From the NCBI GenBank assembly GCA_020630335.1, contig JAHDBN010000007.1, positions 62,001 to 126,000 of the forward strand: a stretch of DNA of 64,000 nt. Direction: 5' to 3'. The number at the start of each line of letters is the position of its first letter. Position 1 is the stretch's first letter. The translations under genes and the position numbers were made by a program. Shown in pieces: positions 48,900-61,483 of this stretch. Source of the DNA: Bacteriovoracaceae bacterium (GTDB lineage: Bacteria; Bdellovibrionota; Bacteriovoracia; Bacteriovoracales; Bacteriovoracaceae). The notes under the pieces were generated by a model. It was not told where the DNA came from. It searched no databases and saw only the letters and a program-made list of their open reading frames with translations.

Positions 48900-49067
48900 T
48901 TATCTATTTATACTTCAAATACATTTTAGAATACAGAGGCAGGGTAAAAAGTTTACATTGGGCAGTGAGTTATATTGCTTGAGTAAATTGTTTTTATCTT
49001 GATTAAGCTTTTAACGCAATTAGATAATACTAAAGATATTAAAGACATAAAAAACACGGAGGAATTT

Positions 49068-49994
49068 ATGAAAATTTTAATGTTGCTAGTTTTAGCAATC
49101 CCAGCATTCTCGCAAAAAGTTTTAAAAGTTAGAGGCGATACAATTCTTATCAGCAATGATGATATCGAACTTGAAGAAGGGAAAAAATATTATATTGAAA
49201 CGGAATCAGGTGAAGCGTTAATTGGAACTTATACAAACGCAAGTACTGGTTCTGGTTATGTTGCAAAAATCTTAGATGGAGAAGTTGCTGAGGGTGATAG
49301 AATTGCTAAGTATACTAAAAAGAAAATTGGTGGTGGAAGTGTTAGTAGATCACACAGTGGCCCTTATAAGAAATTTCAGTGGGGATTTCATGGTGGTCTT
49401 AATCAGTTTGGGACGAAGACTGTTGATGGTAATGGAAAAACTCTAGAAGAAAGTGATGCTGAATTGGGATTCCAAGGAGGCCTTGTTTTACAATATAATA
49501 TAAATGAAAAGTTTGGGATTAATACAAAGCTTTCGTATAATACTTTTAAAGCGAGCAAAGAAGATAAGACTACAATACCAGGGCAAGTTATCACAGACTA
49601 CTTAAGCTTATCAACAATTACTTTACAGCCGACTGCAACTTTTCGAGTTGTTAAATTTTTAGATGTATTTGCAGGAGTAAGAGTTGGAATGGCAATGAGC
49701 TTAGTTCAAACAACTGAAGATGCAAACGGAAACGAACTACCAATATATAATGGAAAGACCGAGTTTGATGCTTTAGATGAGCAAAACCAAAAGTTAGGAA
49801 AGTTCGAAGTGAGTAAAATAGGTCTAGATATTCCTCTTGGGATAGGTTTAAATTTTGACTTAGGCAATATTAGTCTTAGACCTAATTTCACTTATTATCT
49901 ACCACTTGGAGCTTTAGTCGAATCTACAGATCCTAATGATGTTTACGAAACAACATATTCAAATATGGCATTTAATTTAGATGTTTTATTCTAG
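49068..49994 (+). CDS. outer-membrane beta-barrel protein with an N-terminal beta domain (paralogue A)
   Basis: I choose ATG 49068, preceded by GGAGG; it gives a proper signal peptide (MKILMLLVLAIPAFSQ). An in-frame ATC/ATG upstream at 48999 would be unsuitable. The protein has 308 residues. After the signal comes a beta domain (KVLKVRGDTILIS... GYVAKILDGEVAEGDRIAKY), then a barrel of eight or so strands with the closing NMAFNLDVLF. The next gene encodes a paralogue. The N-terminal unit resembles a carbohydrate- or peptide-binding beta sandwich in layout, but no match is known to me. Confidence 0.8.
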   Translation: MKILMLLVLAIPAFSQKVLKVRGDTILISNDDIELEEGKKYYIETESGEALIGTYTNASTGSGYVAKILDGEVAEGDRIAKYTKKKIGGGSVSRSHSGPYKKFQWGFHGGLNQFGTKTVDGNGKTLEESDAELGFQGGLVLQYNINEKFGINTKLSYNTFKASKEDKTTIPGQVITDYLSLSTITLQPTATFRVVKFLDVFAGVRVGMAMSLVQTTEDANGNELPIYNGKTEFDALDEQNQKLGKFEVSKIGLDIPLGIGLNFDLGNISLRPNFTYYLPLGALVESTDPNDVYETTYSNMAFNLDVLF

Positions 49995-50001
49995 GGGAGA
50001 T

Positions 50002-50916
50002 ATGAAAATATTATTAATCTTATTAATATCCCTAGCTTCTTTTTCACAAGAAATCTTAGAAGTTAGAGGAGAAAATGTATTTATAAGTAATAGAGACTTA
50101 GAGTTAACTCCAGGTAAGAAATATATTATTGAAACTCAATCAGGTCCAGCTGAGATTGGGGTTTATAAAAATTCTGATAAAAGTAATGGATATGTAGCCA
50201 AGGTACTTAGTGGGAATATTAATAAAGCTGATTATATTTCTAAAGTGATGGTAAAGACTACAAAAACTAAAACTACGACCAGAACAAAATACAGAACAGT
50301 AAATAGGAATAAAAATTTTTACTGGGGTGCACATTTAGGTGTTAACTCTCTTAGTACCGAGATTATTGATACTAGTAATAATGATCAAGTTATATCAGAA
50401 ACTGATTCAAGCTTAGGGTTTCAGTTAGGACTTAATGCTCAATACTACTTCAATTCCAAATGGGCGCTAAATGCGAAAATTTCTTATAATTCCTTGAGAA
50501 CAAGTGCAGAAACAGGTAGCGGAGTAAGCAGGGTTGAAGAAGAAACTGCAATAAGTACGGTAACAATTCAACCTCAAATTAAGTTTTATCCAATAGATCA
50601 ACTTTTTGTTCAATTAGGCTTAAGAGCAGGATTCTTTACAGGCTTTACTGTTAATGAAGATCAAGGAGGGGTGTCTCTTCCAGAAGAAGATTGGTTAGAT
50701 GATACGTTTGTAGAAAGTAATTATGGTGCTAGAGTTAATAAATTTGGCCTTGATATACCTCTGGGAGTAGGAGGGAGTTTTAAGCTTGAATCTATGATCA
50801 TTGAGCCGAATATAACCTTTTATATCCCATTGGGTCCATTAGTAGAGGGAGTTCAAGGAAATCCATTAGAAGTAAACTATACAAACTTCGCATTTAATAT
50901 AGATTTCTTATTTTAA
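50002..50916 (+). CDS. outer-membrane beta-barrel protein with an N-terminal beta domain (paralogue B)
   Basis: ATG 50002 follows GGGGAG and starts a good signal peptide (MKILLILLISLASFSQ). The protein has 304 residues and matches paralogue A along the whole length: EILEVRGENVFIS, GKKYIIETQSG, GYVAKVLSGN, then FWLGLDIPLGVGGS-like barrel strands and a final NFAFNIDFLF. A Lys/Thr/Arg-rich stretch (TKTKTTTRTKYRTVNR) replaces the linker of A. The two genes are seven bases apart. The 3' end overlaps the transketolase gene, whose coding end also carries this gene's terminator. Confidence 0.8.
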   Translation: MKILLILLISLASFSQEILEVRGENVFISNRDLELTPGKKYIIETQSGPAEIGVYKNSDKSNGYVAKVLSGNINKADYISKVMVKTTKTKTTTRTKYRTVNRNKNFYWGAHLGVNSLSTEIIDTSNNDQVISETDSSLGFQLGLNAQYYFNSKWALNAKISYNSLRTSAETGSGVSRVEEETAISTVTIQPQIKFYPIDQLFVQLGLRAGFFTGFTVNEDQGGVSLPEEDWLDDTFVESNYGARVNKFGLDIPLGVGGSFKLESMIIEPNITFYIPLGPLVEGVQGNPLEVNYTNFAFNIDFLF

Positions 50917-52839
50917 TAAACTAGCAACGGACTCGGCATCGAGTCCGTGCTTTTTATACAGCTCTCTTGCATTATAAGCAGACTGACCGAAGACACCTTT
51001 AATTCCTAAACTTTTAACTGACTTTAAAGTATTCGCATCATCCATCATGATTTGATGAGTAAGAAAAGATCCCATACCATTTTTCACTTGATGATCTTCC
51101 ATAGTAATCAGATTTCCTCCATGAGCTTGAAGCCAAGAAGAATAAGTTTTTGTATCTACTGAATTTAAATGTCTTCTGTTAACAACTCCGTAAGATTTAG
51201 AATTTTTCTCTAAAATCTCAGATGCTTTAAGAGCTTCGTGAACTAGAGGTCCTGTTGCTACAATTAGTCCATCTTTCCCAGTTTTTAAAAGTTGATCTTT
51301 AGTAATATCATTTTCAGCTTCAAAGTTCTTAGGAAAAGTTTCTCTTCCAAGAAAAAAGACATAAGACTTTGCATGTCCCGCTTCTTTATCAGTGTGTTGC
51401 TTTTTTATAAAGTGTTTCATTAATTTATAAGTATCTTCAGAGTTTGCTGGAGCAATGATTTCAACATTTGGAATAGAAGCAAAAGCAGAGAAGTAAGTTA
51501 GAGTCTGGTGACTCGCTCCATCAGCTGCGTCTTGAAAACCAGTGTGAGAAAAAACACAAATCATAGGACAGTTTGATAGACTGGCCATAATAAGTGGAAG
51601 ATTACCTTTTGTGACTCCAAAAGCTGCAAAAGTATCAACTACGGGAATGAATCCATTCTTTGAAAAACCTGCAGCGGCACTTACCATGTTTGATTCAGCA
51701 ATCCCTAAATCTATAGAGCTTTCAGGAAAATCTTTGTGAAATGGTTTTAAGCCAGTTGATCCTTGAAGATCAGAGCTAAGACTAATAATTGGCAATCCTT
51801 CATTTTTTAATTCAGCTAAAGCCTGGCCAACACCAACTTGCATTTTTTCTTTGGGAATTGAATTCGTATTAGATGTTTCTACATTCATTAAGCTCTCTGA
51901 CCATGCTTTAAATTCTTCTGGAGTTTCTTGATTCCAGATTTCATTAATGAAATCAACAATTTTTCCGTCATTTTTCTTTAAAGGAAAACCATGTCCACCA
52001 CTAGCACTTTCTGAGGTTAGCTTTACACCATGTCCTTTAACAGTTTTCATTAATAAGACCGTCGGACTTTTCTTTGAAGCCTCAATGGATTTTTCTAATG
52101 TCTGATATGTTTTTTCAAGATCATTTCCATTTTCTAATTCAACAACATTCCATCCAAGATTTTTCAAAGAATCAAAAGTTGGTTTCATTGAAAAAGCATC
52201 AATAGTTTTTCCTGAAAGCTTAGTTTGATTATCAGAAATGACTAACAAGAATGGATTGATAAGCCCTTTTGCATGAAGCCCAGGGATGGCGGCAAATGAC
52301 TCTTTAGCTTCTCCTTCCATTGCTGCTCCATCGGAAAGCAATGAAATAGTTACTCTCTGATTTCCTTTTAGCTTATCACTCATTGCTAAGCCTTGAGCTT
52401 GTGGAAGTGATGAGCCAAGAGGGCCATTGCTAAGAAGAACTCCCTCTGGGTAAAGATGAGATTCTCCATGTCCAGTCAGTTTAGAACCAAAACTTCTAAA
52501 CCCTTTAAGATCTTCAAAACTTAAATCTCCATATCCATAAAGGGCCTTTATTGCATAGACAGCATTTTCAGCATGGCCAATGTCGTTAATAAAATTAAAA
52601 TGATTATACCAATCAGAGTTTCTAAAAAATATTTCATGACTAGCTGATAAAAACTCAGCGATAGCACTTGGCCCACCCCAGTGACAAGCAGCTCCACCAT
52701 TAACAGCGTGTTGATCCATCAAAGCAACTAAAGATCTTATTGCACGGGGATCGGCGCATTGAAGATCTTCGTTTTTTTGATCTTTAATAGATGTTACATA
52801 TTTAGGTTTGTTAGTAGGAGAGTTTAGTAATTGAGTCAT
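50908..52839 (-). CDS. tkt: transketolase
   Basis: 643 residues, the normal length. The thiamine diphosphate domain shows GHAENAVYA, LLSDGAAMEGEAKESFA with the GDG-like metal motif, and SDNQTKLSG. The pyrimidine domain follows (SLSSDLQGSTGLKPFHKDFPE; GIAESNMVSAAAGF). It moves two-carbon units in the pentose phosphate pathway. The C-terminal codons overlap the convergent barrel gene by nine bases and also contain its terminator. Confidence 0.96.
   Translation of the reverse strand: MTQLLNSPTNKPKYVTSIKDQKNEDLQCADPRAIRSLVALMDQHAVNGGAACHWGGPSAIAEFLSASHEIFFRNSDWYNHFNFINDIGHAENAVYAIKALYGYGDLSFEDLKGFRSFGSKLTGHGESHLYPEGVLLSNGPLGSSLPQAQGLAMSDKLKGNQRVTISLLSDGAAMEGEAKESFAAIPGLHAKGLINPFLLVISDNQTKLSGKTIDAFSMKPTFDSLKNLGWNVVELENGNDLEKTYQTLEKSIEASKKSPTVLLMKTVKGHGVKLTSESASGGHGFPLKKNDGKIVDFINEIWNQETPEEFKAWSESLMNVETSNTNSIPKEKMQVGVGQALAELKNEGLPIISLSSDLQGSTGLKPFHKDFPESSIDLGIAESNMVSAAAGFSKNGFIPVVDTFAAFGVTKGNLPLIMASLSNCPMICVFSHTGFQDAADGASHQTLTYFSAFASIPNVEIIAPANSEDTYKLMKHFIKKQHTDKEAGHAKSYVFFLGRETFPKNFEAENDITKDQLLKTGKDGLIVATGPLVHEALKASEILEKNSKSYGVVNRRHLNSVDTKTYSSWLQAHGGNLITMEDHQVKNGMGSFLTHQIMMDDANTLKSVKSLGIKGVFGQSAYNARELYKKHGLDAESVASLLK
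50927..50955 (+). terminator. terminator for the barrel pair, embedded in the tkt coding end
   Basis: ACGGACTCG (50927-50935) pairs perfectly with CGAGTCCGT (50940-50948) around GCAT, followed by GC and five T's. It lies 11 bases past the barrel stop and inside the last codons of transketolase on the other strand. Confidence 0.85.
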
Positions 52840-52899: not shown

Positions 52900-54747
52900 C
52901 TATGTGTTGATTTTACTAAAAGCTGTTTTGAGTCCCTCTTGGTAAGCGAGCTTTATGAGTGCAGAGATTGCTTTAGGAGTAGCTTGCTTTAAAGAAAGTT
53001 CTAACTTTTCATCTTGGCAGATGTATTTTCCCCGAGAGGCTGCTCTTTGAATTAAAGATTTTTGAGCAATATGAAAAGATGTTTTAAACACTTTTCCTAT
53101 TTTTTGAGGTATGTTTTCTAACCCTTCAAGAGAGCCGTTTGTAAGAATAATTTTATTTCTTAAACTTTTACTCCAAAGATCTTTCTTTTCAAGCCTTTGA
53201 GCTAAAGCTGGATGAATCATTTTATGTCCAGCAACATCTACTAGCATACTAGACATAGGTGCGAGGGTATAAAATCTTCCAAGGGTATGGAGCATTTCAT
53301 CTTTAACATCGCCAAAAAAACTTGAGTTTCTTAAACCAAATCTTCTGATGTTGTTTTTAAGTTTAGCCCAATTGTATCTTGAGGTAAGAGGTGTTTTTTT
53401 CCACAGATCAAATTGCAGAACCCCTTTTTCAGCTAATGAACCTTTAAATTTATTATAGGGTTCAAATTTTTTTGAAAGTTCACAAGATTTTCTTAAAGCA
53501 GAATAATAAAGTGTTTCAAAAACAAGCTCTTCTAATAAAATTGCATTTTTTGAATCATAAGGAATATTCATTTTAAAGAAAAGTTCGTGAAGTCCATGTG
53601 TTGAAATAAGTAAAGGCCTATATTGAGTAATAAGAGTATCAGTATTAAACTCATCAATAAAAAAATTAAGCTTTTCAACAAGATTAGAAACAACGTCTCC
53701 AAATCTTTTAAAATCAAAAGATTGCGCTCCATCTTTTGTTATAACAAATTGAGGAAGGGATATATAAGACTTCACACCTAAATCTCTTTTATCAAGAAGT
53801 GGGTTTTGATAACTTCTGTCTATGAAATTTGATTTTAAAGCATAATTATCTTTGAATAAAATTTCTTTTTTTCCTGGGTTTAAAACTGATTTTACTATTC
53901 CTTGATAAACCTCTTGTGCTTTTTTTTCTGTTGAGTGAGTGTTTTCTAAAATTCTATAGCGTTTATCAAAATCTTTATTGATACAGACATCAAGCTTTTC
54001 TTTTTTTTCTTCAGGAAGTAGAGTCCAGAAAGATTTTTTTTCTAACCTGTTCATAAAAATAGTAGGGATTTGCATGCTCACTGATGTTGATTCATCTTGT
54101 TCAAATTGATTTAAACATTCTTGAGAGTAAGGAAGTAAAACCTCAGTTTCATCCAAGTGTTTATTGGACTCTTTACTATCAAGTGTATTAAAGAAATTAC
54201 TAGAAAATGTATAAAGGCCTTGAGATAAAAAATCATAAATTTTCAATGCTTCTTTAGCATTATTTTTACTCATTAAAATTGCAATTCGTAAGAAAAAATA
54301 ACTTGGAGTTTCATAAGTTCTATCATCAATTTTTAATAAATGATGATCAATTAAATATCTCAATCCATTATAAGTTAATCGATAATCGCGTTGAGGCTTA
54401 ATAGTATCTTTCAAAGCAGGGTAGATTAACTCAAAGCTTGAATAATAATCATGATCGATAACTTTATGTTTATAAAGTTTCATTGTTGCATGCTCAAAAC
54501 CTGGAGTTTTTACTTTTATGGAATCAAGTTCTAGTTGAACAAGAAGTTTTTCATAATCTGGATGTAATTTTACTTTAGATAATAATAAATTTTTAAAATC
54601 ATCATTATATTCATAAATCTCTTTTAGATGAGCTTCATTAGCTAAGTTTTCCATAGAAAACTTTTTAAACTTTGATTTATGCATCATTAATAACTCTTTT
54701 AATTTTGAATTATTAACTTCTTCCGTTTGCTTTAAGGCCTTAGCCAT
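52900..54747 (-). CDS. degenerate class I ribonucleotide reductase alpha subunit (NrdA-like), catalytically dead
   Basis: 615 residues, shorter than the 750-residue family norm. Alignment by eye to class I NrdA finds conserved scaffold: HPDYEKLLVQ, YRLTYNGLRYLIDHHLL, IFMNRLEKKSFWTLL, EILFKD followed by KSN, LPQFV, IPYDSKNAILLEELVFETLY, KGVLQFDLW, FGLRNS, SLRNKIILTNGSLEG and AASRGKYICQ. Yet the NLCxE catalytic loop is absent, the Cys near CNLxSxNLP reads KSYISLP, the region round the first redox Cys is deleted, and the C-terminal Tyr-Tyr pair is replaced (TAFSKINT). The ATP cone is missing too. It cannot reduce ribonucleotides. A regulatory or dimer-poisoning role is possible. Its promoter looks like sigma-28. 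Confidence 0.85.
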   Translation of the reverse strand: MAKALKQTEEVNNSKLKELLMMHKSKFKKFSMENLANEAHLKEIYEYNDDFKNLLLSKVKLHPDYEKLLVQLELDSIKVKTPGFEHATMKLYKHKVIDHDYYSSFELIYPALKDTIKPQRDYRLTYNGLRYLIDHHLLKIDDRTYETPSYFFLRIAILMSKNNAKEALKIYDFLSQGLYTFSSNFFNTLDSKESNKHLDETEVLLPYSQECLNQFEQDESTSVSMQIPTIFMNRLEKKSFWTLLPEEKKEKLDVCINKDFDKRYRILENTHSTEKKAQEVYQGIVKSVLNPGKKEILFKDNYALKSNFIDRSYQNPLLDKRDLGVKSYISLPQFVITKDGAQSFDFKRFGDVVSNLVEKLNFFIDEFNTDTLITQYRPLLISTHGLHELFFKMNIPYDSKNAILLEELVFETLYYSALRKSCELSKKFEPYNKFKGSLAEKGVLQFDLWKKTPLTSRYNWAKLKNNIRRFGLRNSSFFGDVKDEMLHTLGRFYTLAPMSSMLVDVAGHKMIHPALAQRLEKKDLWSKSLRNKIILTNGSLEGLENIPQKIGKVFKTSFHIAQKSLIQRAASRGKYICQDEKLELSLKQATPKAISALIKLAYQEGLKTAFSKINT

Positions 54748-54785
54748 TAAGCTACCTCCCGATTTTCATATCAGCATGTTTATAT

Positions 54786-54813
54786 TTATCGGGATTATAA
54801 GAAGAAAACTTTA
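54786..54813 (-). promoter_or_regulatory. sigma-28 (FliA)-like promoter of the NrdA-like gene
   Basis: On the minus strand TAAAGTTT (54806-54813), a perfect FliA -35, is followed after 12 bases by CCCGATAA (54786-54793), seven of eight for the -10. The gene's GGGAGG and ATG follow about 30 and 40 bases downstream. Confidence 0.65.
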
Positions 54814-54830: not shown

Positions 54831-55211
54831 TTATAAGGTAGAAGATTGATATTCTTGGAATTCATCAAAGCTAGAAAAAACTTTATCAATAGTGAGGATC
54901 CATCCAAATGATCTTGCTAGAAAACGTTGTAGCCAAAAGCTTGAAATAACATAGTGATGTCTTTTTTTGGGATGCTTTTTTATCTTAAAAAGATATTTAA
55001 AGTTTAGAGGGTGCGCGAAAAAGAGCTTTGAGATGTCGACTATATAATCAAAGCTCTCAACTTTCTTGGAAAATTCAAGAAGCTCCTCATAGTCTTTTTT
55101 TAAAAGATCAGGAGTTATTCCTCCTATGGCCTTTATATAAAAAAGAGATTCTTTCTCATTTGTTTGGATTTCAATCCTGCCCCATTTAGATTTGTGAATT
55201 ATTGAATTCAT
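54831..55211 (-). CDS. small protein of unknown function, STAS-like fold possible
   Basis: 126 residues without signal peptide. The pattern of strand, helix and strand (FYIKAIGGITPDLL, FDYIVDISKLFF) resembles STAS/SpoIIAA-type antisigma-antagonist folds, but I see no phospho-Ser motif. It ends the operon with the radical SAM and nucleosidase-like genes (one base gap to the former). Function is unknown. Confidence 0.6.
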   Translation of the reverse strand: MNSIIHKSKWGRIEIQTNEKESLFYIKAIGGITPDLLKKDYEELLEFSKKVESFDYIVDISKLFFAHPLNFKYLFKIKKHPKKRHHYVISSFWLQRFLARSFGWILTIDKVFSSFDEFQEYQSSTL

Positions 55212-55212
55212 T

Positions 55213-56205
55213 TTACTCCATGCAAAGATAGATTTTTTCTTCTTTTATGCCAGATGATAAAAGTAAATCTTTTACAGTGTTGAACATCCAGTTTCTTGTT
55301 GGTTTACTATATCGGATCTTCTCATCAAAACTTTTAATATAGGGACCAGCGTGCAAATTAGAATCTGGGTAATTATTTCTCACTTCTTTATAGACATCTT
55401 TAGTATAGCGAACAACTCCTAGAGAAACATATTGAATCTGCTCTTTTTTTACATTCTCTAATAAATTATTAATGAGTTCTTCGTACTCATCTTTAAAAGA
55501 ACTTGAATAAATCATCGGATCAAGGTGAATGCCTAATTGAAAACCTGAATCCGATAGCTTTGAAAGAGCATTAATCCGTGCTTTAGTACTAGGAGTTTTT
55601 AAATCAAATTCTTTTGAGATATTCTGTGGTGATAAAGAAAAAGTCACAAGAGTATTTTCTAATGGCCTTAACTTTAAAACATTTTTAATATTCACTGATT
55701 TAGTTCTTAACTCAAGTTTTGCTTGAGGGTGTTTTTCAAAAAAATCCCAATAAAGATCTAGCTCATCAGTTATATGATTTAGAGCGAGTGAGTCAGAAAA
55801 TTCTCCTGCATGAAACCAGGCCTCAGGGTGAATTTTTGTAATCTCTTCCATTTCCTTGATGATGTCTTCATGATTTACAAAAAAGACCATGTCAGGAGTA
55901 TTGAAATATCCTTGAAGAAAACAATATTCACACTCATAAATACAGTTATAGGCATGTATGAAATAAAAATGTGGTGCCTTGCCGCTTCCATAAGCATCTG
56001 GGGTTTGTTTTATGAGTTGTCCTTTTTTCTTGGCGATAAAAAGATTAAGATTTTCTCTTTTTTGAAGGTAAGGTTTTTTAACTTTTCCCCAGTAGTTTTG
56101 AAAATCATCGATAATGATGGGTTCTTGATTTTTCAAGTTTGAAAGAATTTTTTGAGCATTGGGATGATCAAGAATATCTTTTTCGATGAGGACCTTGGAG
56201 AACAT
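55213..56205 (-). CDS. radical SAM protein of the spore photoproduct lyase family
   Basis: 330 residues. The radical SAM cluster motif reads CIYECEYC (CxxxCxxC), in the setting AYNCIYECEYCFLQGYF. Family segments include WFHAGEFSDSLALNH, LELRTKSVN and GIHLDPMIYS, as in SplB-like proteins. True spore photoproduct lyase repairs UV thymine dimers in spores; this organism shows no sporulation genes here, so the substrate may be other DNA or nucleotide damage. The gene is one base from a nucleosidase-like gene, a suggestive pairing. Confidence 0.83.
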   Translation of the reverse strand: MFSKVLIEKDILDHPNAQKILSNLKNQEPIIIDDFQNYWGKVKKPYLQKRENLNLFIAKKKGQLIKQTPDAYGSGKAPHFYFIHAYNCIYECEYCFLQGYFNTPDMVFFVNHEDIIKEMEEITKIHPEAWFHAGEFSDSLALNHITDELDLYWDFFEKHPQAKLELRTKSVNIKNVLKLRPLENTLVTFSLSPQNISKEFDLKTPSTKARINALSKLSDSGFQLGIHLDPMIYSSSFKDEYEELINNLLENVKKEQIQYVSLGVVRYTKDVYKEVRNNYPDSNLHAGPYIKSFDEKIRYSKPTRNWMFNTVKDLLLSSGIKEEKIYLCME

Positions 56206-59143: not shown

Positions 59144-61444
59144 TTAATACTCAATAATTGAATCTGGGATTATTCGTTTTCCTTTCATTAATGATTTCTG
59201 TGAACTAATAGCTGATGTTTGTGCTCCAAAATCCATGCCTATTTCTCTGTTTAAGATGTCAAATATAATACTTGTACAATTATGTGTTTGGAGAAAGAAA
59301 TTATTATTTTTTTGTATGATTTTTTCTTTATAGCCGCTAGGAGCTACAATGTATTTTTCCTTCCCAAAGCTTTCAATAGTGCCCTTTAGTTGTTTTTGAT
59401 TATGGCTTGTTTCATTATTTAAGTAATATTTTTTACTTTGTAGAAATATTTCAGCTTCACCAGAAAAAGCATCAAATGCGGGAATATTGTACTTCCTTGA
59501 GCTTTTGTAAATATTACTGAACTCAAGAGAAAGTTTTTCTATTTGTTCACTATTGAGTCTATAAACGTAACCAGTTACCCCCTTACTTTGTTTTGAGAAT
59601 ACCTTATTGGAAGTATACTTCACATCGTTAAAGCCATAGATTCTTGTTCCGATTCTTATTTCGGTGTGTCCAAACTTTCCTATATCTTTGAATAAAACCT
59701 CTATACTGTTTTGCTTATAAAATTCATATTGAGGATTTTTCAAAAGTTTTTTTCCACTATAGACAGGTACATCGATTTTAGATTTGTTTAATTGATAAGT
59801 TTCAAGACGAAGAACTGAATCTTCAAGCAAAGGTAAAGTATGGATTCTAAAGTCAGGTCTTTCGACAATGTTCTTCATGAGGCCCTCTCTATATTGAGAA
59901 AAATAAGAAGAAAGTTGAACTTCATGAGCGAATTTAGAATTTAGTACTTGCATTTTTTGAACATCGAGGTGAGACAAATTATCAAGATCTGCTTTTTCTA
60001 CGATTTTCATAACTTCTTCTATGAAATTTTGTCTTGTTTTCTTTATTTTATTTTTTAAAAGATTTCTAGCGCTTGCTTCTAAAAATTCAAGTACGGGGTG
60101 ATCTTCCCAGGGTCTGAGAGCAAAAAATAACCGTTCATGAGGAGCAAGGTCGCCTTGTATTGTGGAGCCTTTTTTCGCTGCCATATTCTTTAAAACTTCA
60201 TCAAGCTTAAAAAAGAAATATTCAATATTGTCTTGATGCTGAACTTCAATTTCAAAATCGTAAAATGATTTCTTTAACAAAGTGTGATCGATAGCTTTAG
60301 CTTTATTGAATTTTTTAAACCTAGAGAGATTTCCTGTGTTTTGAAGTTCACTGGCAAGAATATGAGTGGCTTTTAAGAGTTCTTCATAATTTTTATGGAA
60401 TTGTCTTAACTCGAATCCGACAAGACCTTCTTTATAGGGAGTACCTATTCGAAAACTAGGGCCATTGACAGTTCTTGCGCTGAAAACTTCACTTGGTTCT
60501 AAAAGTCCTTCATTTACATCAATCTCGTATAATTGAAAAGCGGTTTTATTATTTTCACTAATTGGATTTAAATAGGGGTGAACTAATGTCTTACCAGGTA
60601 TATACATAGGATCATTTTCAAAACGAATGTAATTACTTTCTAATGCTCTAAGTTGTCCATAATCAGATTCAAATAATGCATATCCTGAAATTCCCTGAAC
60701 TCGTACTTTGTTTGAATGGACCACATGTCCTTGAAAATCTGCACGTCCAAAATTAATGGCAAAAGAATCTAAAAAATCATTCATGTCTCCTAGATTGGAA
60801 AAAATCATCCCATTTCCTTCAAGAGTCCCATGAGGTTCTGCAAATAATCCCTCTGGAAGAGAATTATTTGCTCCTTTTATTTTTACAAAAATATCACCAA
60901 GTTCCGTGTTCTCTTTGTGTATCTTTTTAGCAATCTTTAATCTTTGCTCAAATGACATGGTTATCCATTCATGTTCGGGGATTATTTTAGGTCGGTAAGC
61001 GTTTACGATATTTGGATTTCTTGAAAGTGATAATTCAAATTCTAATCCAAAAGTAATTTTAAAGTTCTTGTTACCTCCGACAAACATTTCTTTGTAAAAA
61101 TTTTTGTTCCTTAACTTTTTATTTAAAGTTCTTACTTTTATAAATGTATGGTAAAGACTCAATTCTTCTGAATTTAAGGCTTTATTGTTTTCTATCTTAT
61201 TTAAAATGTTGATACGTTTTTTCGGGTAAGGGATATAAGAAATCTCATTTTCAATCCATTTATTTTCAAGAAAAGAAAGCTTTGAACCATTTGATATCTT
61301 TCTTTCAATGCTGATAGGAGAGACGGTATACCTAGAAAGAGTTGTATAAATTTTTGAAAAATACCTACTACACATATTATCTGCCAAGCTTATTTTTGGA
61401 GCAGAGAAAATCGTGAATAATAAGAAAATATAAATATATTTCAT
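59144..61444 (-). CDS. large exported protein, amidoligase-like segment plus papain-like C-terminus
   Basis: 766 residues with a signal peptide (cleavage near LADN). After an unassigned helical start, residues 130-290 contain FGLEFELSL, the Asp/Glu-rich strand EGLFAEPHGTLEGNG and FQGHVVHSN, which recall glutamine-synthetase-like amidoligases (Glu-rich metal strand, then a His strand). A long helical middle follows. The end has FGHTEIRIG with His593 and HNCTSIIFDIL with Cys723, an order like DUF4105 or permuted papain-like peptidases. Amidoligases need ATP, which a periplasmic protein would lack, so the first reading is tentative. A sigma-28-like box lies right at the start. Confidence 0.7.
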   Translation of the reverse strand: MKYIYIFLLFTIFSAPKISLADNMCSRYFSKIYTTLSRYTVSPISIERKISNGSKLSFLENKWIENEISYIPYPKKRINILNKIENNKALNSEELSLYHTFIKVRTLNKKLRNKNFYKEMFVGGNKNFKITFGLEFELSLSRNPNIVNAYRPKIIPEHEWITMSFEQRLKIAKKIHKENTELGDIFVKIKGANNSLPEGLFAEPHGTLEGNGMIFSNLGDMNDFLDSFAINFGRADFQGHVVHSNKVRVQGISGYALFESDYGQLRALESNYIRFENDPMYIPGKTLVHPYLNPISENNKTAFQLYEIDVNEGLLEPSEVFSARTVNGPSFRIGTPYKEGLVGFELRQFHKNYEELLKATHILASELQNTGNLSRFKKFNKAKAIDHTLLKKSFYDFEIEVQHQDNIEYFFFKLDEVLKNMAAKKGSTIQGDLAPHERLFFALRPWEDHPVLEFLEASARNLLKNKIKKTRQNFIEEVMKIVEKADLDNLSHLDVQKMQVLNSKFAHEVQLSSYFSQYREGLMKNIVERPDFRIHTLPLLEDSVLRLETYQLNKSKIDVPVYSGKKLLKNPQYEFYKQNSIEVLFKDIGKFGHTEIRIGTRIYGFNDVKYTSNKVFSKQSKGVTGYVYRLNSEQIEKLSLEFSNIYKSSRKYNIPAFDAFSGEAEIFLQSKKYYLNNETSHNQKQLKGTIESFGKEKYIVAPSGYKEKIIQKNNNFFLQTHNCTSIIFDILNREIGMDFGAQTSAISSQKSLMKGKRIIPDSIIEY

Positions 61445-61455
61445 AACTCTCTATT

Positions 61456-61483
61456 TTATCGGTCTTAGAGTTTGATAACTTTA
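61456..61483 (-). promoter_or_regulatory. sigma-28 (FliA)-like promoter of the 766-residue exported protein
   Basis: On the minus strand TAAAGTTA (61476-61483) and ACCGATAA (61456-61463) are 12 bases apart, each seven of eight to consensus. The ATG is 11 bases after the box, so the mRNA would be nearly leaderless; this weakens the call a little. Confidence 0.5.

Follow-up and report, generated by a model that had tools for sequence, protein, structure and literature searches.

Ribonucleotide reductase (RNR) is an essential enzyme that has been studied intensively, and losing its function usually proves lethal or ends in loss of the gene. The alpha subunits of class I and class II RNR dimerize through helices A/B. 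RNR classes are used here as previously defined (PMC4390871). The betaherpesvirus R1 homologues, HCMV UL45 and MCMV M45, have been described as lacking catalytic activity and as acting by RIP1 binding. They are thought to have been kept for RIP1-related functions, and gammaherpesvirus R1 proteins have been contrasted with them (PMC5469499). Our literature search, which most subscription papers lay outside, found no report of a bacterial RNR alpha pseudoenzyme. RNR pseudoenzymes are already known from viruses, and the bacterial case described here is new as far as that search reached and rare, being known from two genomes.

The window, the whole stretch of 64,000 nucleotides of Bacteriovoracaceae DNA that was analyzed, contains a gene for a 615-aa protein. 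We consider this protein to be, on balance, an orphan class I NrdA-derived pseudoenzyme that acts in the motile phase through binding to a partner. The gene and its parts are as follows.

54784 to 54813, minus strand: FliA/sigma-28-like promoter, TAAAG-N16-CCGATAAAT, 36 nt before the start codon (motif search)
54754 to 54760, minus strand: Shine-Dalgarno sequence GGGAGGT (read from the sequence)
52900 to 54747, minus strand: NrdA-derived pseudoenzyme open reading frame, 615 aa, start codon ATG (profile matches, alignment, model)
54178 to 54411, minus strand: residues 113 to 190, all-alpha N-terminal domain, the best-kept part, 85% identical to the orthologue (Pfam, orthologue comparison)
54079 to 54177, minus strand: residues 191 to 223, low-confidence and poorly conserved linker (alignment, model), standing in place of about 110 NrdA residues that comprise the first redox Cys, the specificity site, and the dimer helices (NrdA alignment)
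53764 to 53826, minus strand: residues 308 to 328, site without the NLCxE loop (radical Cys, Asn, and Glu) and without the second redox Cys (alignment)
53272 to 53349, minus strand: residues 467 to 492, IRRFGLRNSSFFGDVKDEMLHTLGRF, the longest identical stretch between the orthologues, at the position of the NrdA phosphate loop (alignment)
52903 to 52935, minus strand: C-terminus GLKTAFSKINT, with Ser-Lys for the Tyr-Tyr pair and without the Cys tail (alignment)

Sequence matches much too strong to be chance results make the 615-aa protein a homologue of class I RNR alpha. A Pfam search matched it to the barrel domain Ribonuc_red_lgC (PF02867; E 3.5e-54) and, in the all-alpha domain, to Ribonuc_red_lgN (PF00317; E 1.3e-8), and did not find the B12-type N-terminal domain PF08471. 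In a sequence search of the PDB the best solved relative was human RRM1 (E 8e-60). The protein scored 179.4 bits against the NrdE_NrdA model TIGR02506, below the curated cut-off of 341 bits. Comparison with NrdA showed the same order of landmarks that the original prediction had described.

An AlphaFold2 model was built on a 30-row alignment that included intact NrdA sequences (pTM 0.78; mean pLDDT 73.9; residues 1 to 46 and 191 to 224 unreliable). A structure search with this model ranked human and yeast R1 at the top (Foldseek E 1.4e-28), and VIA-align superposed 549 residues on human RRM1 (Z 33.4; rmsd 3.6). Because intact NrdA rows went into building it, the model supports the NrdA fold but is no independent evidence for it. 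The sequence matches to NrdA, for their part, stand without its help.

To map the losses, the protein was aligned with 28 NrdA proteins that are intact, of which related genomes supplied 27 and a phage 1, and residues were numbered as in the NrdA in L003. It keeps 54 of the 170 fully invariant positions. Near-invariant residues were kept at 61 of 100 positions in structural regions versus 11 of 114 in functional regions, and because of this disparity the losses represent selective stripping, not random decay. Among the structural regions, 12/20 near-invariant residues remain in the all-alpha domain and 15/25, 22/36, and 12/19 in three stretches of the barrel, the last being its C-terminal region. 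Among the functional regions, the counts are 1/48 for the segment of the first redox Cys, specificity site, and dimer helices (about residues 207 to 330), 1/17 from NLCxE to the second redox Cys, 4/19 for the phosphate-loop region, 2/11 for the Tyr-Tyr/Cys tail, and 3/19 for the ATP cone.

The individual redox and radical losses listed in the original prediction were all recovered in the alignment. The first redox Cys (C217) is gone together with its segment, N426, C428, and E430 of the NLCTE loop are missing, the second redox Cys (C443) is replaced, and the tyrosine pair Y740-Y741 has become Ser-Lys. No Cys or Tyr was found in the alignment at shifted equivalent sites; the four Cys of the protein (residues 211, 255, 422, and 577) sit away from the NrdA sites, and the orthologue has each of them too. 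The losses extend further, to the C-terminal Cys pair C776 and C779, the protein ending before the tail, to the phosphate loop PTAST, and to the whole specificity-site/dimer-helix segment at about residues 207 to 330, which presumably includes helices A/B of RNR structures. The reported absence of the ATP cone stood in part: Pfam recognizes the cone in a real relative and not in the 615-aa protein, but the model still overlays human ATP cone residues from about residue 22 to 34 onward. Going by the model, part of the cone helices may survive. What remains is the NrdA body, an all-alpha domain and a barrel core, with the catalytic, radical-transfer, redox, and specificity elements all gone.

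A stripped site of this kind could in principle have been rebuilt for another reaction in the barrel. The 26-residue stretch that replaces the phosphate loop does not differ at all between the two orthologues (residues 467 to 492; permutation P 0.028), and the four Cys are conserved. However, no known catalytic motif is present, and the replacing loop is of low confidence in the model at residues 482 to 489, which leaves a rebuilt catalytic site an improbable reading. A role as a stand-alone sensor for nucleotides or dNTPs would fit the RNR ancestry, but it is less probable again, given that the specificity site is deleted, the ATP cone is not recognizable, and the phosphate loop is lost.

The gene is not widespread. 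When it was sought across Bacteriovoracales, as had been suggested, only two genomes carried a copy. The second copy, 72 to 74% identical, is in a Bacteriovoracaceae metagenome-assembled genome (JAHDHG010000002.1; congener G001) and has the same upstream neighbors. No further copy was found in 129 genomes of the family or 369 genomes of the phylum. GTDB genome contigs yielded no orthologue beyond the one already found in a search with two peptide patterns, which distant cases could escape. The neighboring genes are as follows.

50908 to 52839, minus strand: transketolase, downstream neighbor in the same orientation (Pfam, congener comparison)
54831 to 55211, minus strand: 126-aa protein without a Pfam family, upstream neighbor, present in 4/4 congeners
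55213 to 56205, minus strand: spore-photoproduct-lyase-like radical SAM protein, conserved context (Pfam SPL, E 4e-29)

The 126-aa gene adjoins either the transketolase gene or the pseudoenzyme gene in all four congeners. In congeners G002 and G003 the site is cleanly empty, with the 126-aa gene directly adjoining the transketolase gene. The spore-photoproduct-lyase-like protein is also found in congeners G001 and G003; the lineage is not known to sporulate. On the other side of the transketolase gene, at 48999 to 50916 on the plus strand, two adjoining and related exported proteins of 331 and 311 aa are encoded by open reading frames that overlap by 14 bases. They are perhaps outer-membrane beta-barrels.

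The origin of the gene was also considered. Its GC content is 29%, versus 32% for the window. In the tree the stem of the pseudoenzyme, at about 8 changes per site, is too long for it to be placed; a clade joining it to the NrdA of the family itself was not rejected (p-AU 0.55). Local origin and horizontal gain would both be compatible with this tree. A viral origin was considered and rejected. No viral relative of the pseudoenzyme was found among IMG/VR viral contigs, searches of phages and plasmids gave only RNR alpha matches at about 20 to 30% identity, and the best-covering match, from a huge phage, is a protein that keeps NLCAE and the Tyr-Tyr pair, not a stripped copy. Two very divergent RNR large subunits found elsewhere in the family (L083 in G009:C43 and L084 in G035:C68) have intact NLCME/NPCSE motifs although their branches are about 7 changes per site long.

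Class I RNR is carried by phages, and the protein could be a decoy for foreign class I RNR parts, for example NrdB from prey or from a phage that infects the cell, starving the invader of dNTPs. With no partner inside the host cell, an alpha body would be available to foreign beta subunits. However, no signal peptide was evident by eye, and neither the pseudoenzyme nor four nearby proteins matched a defense family. We regard the decoy as slightly less probable than the sensor and distinctly unlikely.

A codon model of the orthologue pair (597 codons) gave an omega of 0.028 and a dN of 0.158, the omega being approximate with dS saturated. The same comparison of the adjacent transketolase genes gave an omega of 0.022 and a dN of 0.174. 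The likelihood-ratio statistic against neutrality was 502, and on this codon evidence neutrality of the pseudoenzyme gene is excluded even though dS is saturated. As judged from the codon comparison, strong purifying selection holds the 615-aa protein, which is as constrained as transketolase. Because only two genomes carry the gene, the case for conservation rests on a single pair with saturated dS.

These values speak directly to whether the gene is a decaying pseudogene, a remnant of the loss of class I RNR in the genus. The genus lacks class I RNR while many relatives outside it keep the enzyme, and two congeners are without a copy, as might be expected of a remnant. However, all 615 codons are open in one genome, the frame in the other is open before and after a 10-N scaffold gap, a promoter motif and a Shine-Dalgarno sequence are present, and the constraint equals that on transketolase. 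A frameshift in the orthologue was considered and rejected, as the break is this assembly gap and not a mutation. Neither decay nor relaxed selection was found, and such a remnant is very unlikely.

The cell's own RNR appears to be of another class. NrdB (PF00268) is absent from this genome, which is 98% complete, and from three congeners (G000 to G003 together), and no working class I NrdA and no NrdD were found in these genomes. A 1170-aa NrdJ is present in all four and is the sole RNR recognized there; in this genome it is intact, with a class II N-terminal domain and an NPCSE motif. The original proposal that the protein mixes with real NrdA or binds NrdB is therefore left with no target in the cell, as both are absent. 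A dominant-negative or capping regulator of a real class I RNR, acting through mixed oligomers with NrdA or sequestration of NrdB in the same cell, would draw on the NrdA-like body and its C-terminal barrel region with 12 of 19 near-invariant residues kept, but with no such subunits in the four genomes and the dimer-helix segment deleted it is the least probable reading of all and is refuted, barring an nrdAB operon in the ~2% of the genome that is missing. From the gene content, it is possible that dNTP synthesis is held off in attack cells, as had been suggested, only via NrdJ or another partner.

The sigma-28-like promoter in the original prediction gained support from several sides. The orthologue has a variant in the same place, TAAAG-N15-TCGATAAAT, which departs from the motif by one mismatch and has lost one base from the spacer. 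The attack-phase consensus of Bdellovibrio is TTAAG-N16-CCGATA (PMC3627812). The promoter here agrees with that consensus, which is Bdellovibrio's and not this species', in the -10 element and the spacing. Each of the four genomes encodes a FliA that scores above cut-off. The promoter pattern occurs 36 times in them versus 5 times for a reversed control, and most occurrences lie no more than 50 nt ahead of a start codon. Many genes behind the pattern encode exported or lipoprotein-like proteins, as judged by eye. Taken together, the motif and its enrichment make FliA control of the pseudoenzyme gene likely.

The window holds only two FliA-like motifs, with 0.06 expected. The second, TAAAG-N16-CCGATAA at 61456 to 61483 on the minus strand, lies 11 nt upstream of the gene for a 766-aa exported protein (59144 to 61444). 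A tandem pair of FliA-like motifs lies upstream of one exported protein at G000:C1:15965-16021.

The reading that we favor, an orphan class I NrdA-derived pseudoenzyme that binds a partner in the motile phase, agrees with the original suggestion of a conserved fold with a stripped active site and a non-enzymatic role, which the alignment, the model, and purifying selection all support. The protein would be made with the FliA (motile/attack-phase) regulon and would work by binding. With its dimer helices lost, it would probably do so as a monomer. The remaining shell, including the identical 26-residue stretch at the former phosphate loop, might serve as the docking surface for the partner. No feature of the sequence singles out one candidate. 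The pathway is a more tentative matter: that the protein controls dNTP or DNA synthesis while cells are not replicating, perhaps by acting on NrdJ or its reductant, is a first guess that we hold loosely, and the decoy for phage or prey NrdB and the rebuilt catalytic site are weaker than it. Equally speculative is the fullest version, that this is the first cellular, non-viral RNR alpha pseudoenzyme, retained when the lineage gave up class I RNR, brought under the motile-phase sigma factor, and now regulating DNA-precursor synthesis or replication via a new partner such as NrdJ.

The alpha subunit has outlived its own catalytic parts and the whole enzyme system to which it belonged, yet it is constrained like a central metabolic enzyme. 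The locus offers a small case of how predatory-lineage bacteria may link motility with nucleotide metabolism or with the state of the cell cycle.

Compared with described systems, the protein shares with class I NrdA (human RRM1 type) homologous all-alpha and barrel domains at about 25 to 33% identity, but it has lost the catalytic, radical, redox, phosphate-binding, and specificity elements and has no NrdB. It shares a distant barrel fold with class II NrdJ (Thermotoga NrdJ, Z 26.4), although the similarity is much lower and both the radical Cys (NPCxE) and the B12-type N-terminal domain are lacking. The model also matched 7rw6 (Z 25.2), EBV BORF2 (R1) bound to APOBEC3B, a gammaherpesvirus case in which an R1 body binds another protein, although the binding partner differs. 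UL45 and M45 are the closest known analogues. Like them, the protein has an R1 body with most catalytic residues gone and is apparently preserved for non-enzymatic work, and its structure matches in BFVD include R1-like proteins of HHV-6, rat CMV, and other betaherpesviruses. In contrast to these viral proteins, which act on eukaryotic signaling proteins, it is bacterial and chromosomal, and it is shortened by the specificity/dimer-segment deletion. Its origin is probably independent of the inactive betaherpesvirus homologues. The comparison suggests that bacteria, like betaherpesviruses, can put the RNR body to a different use.
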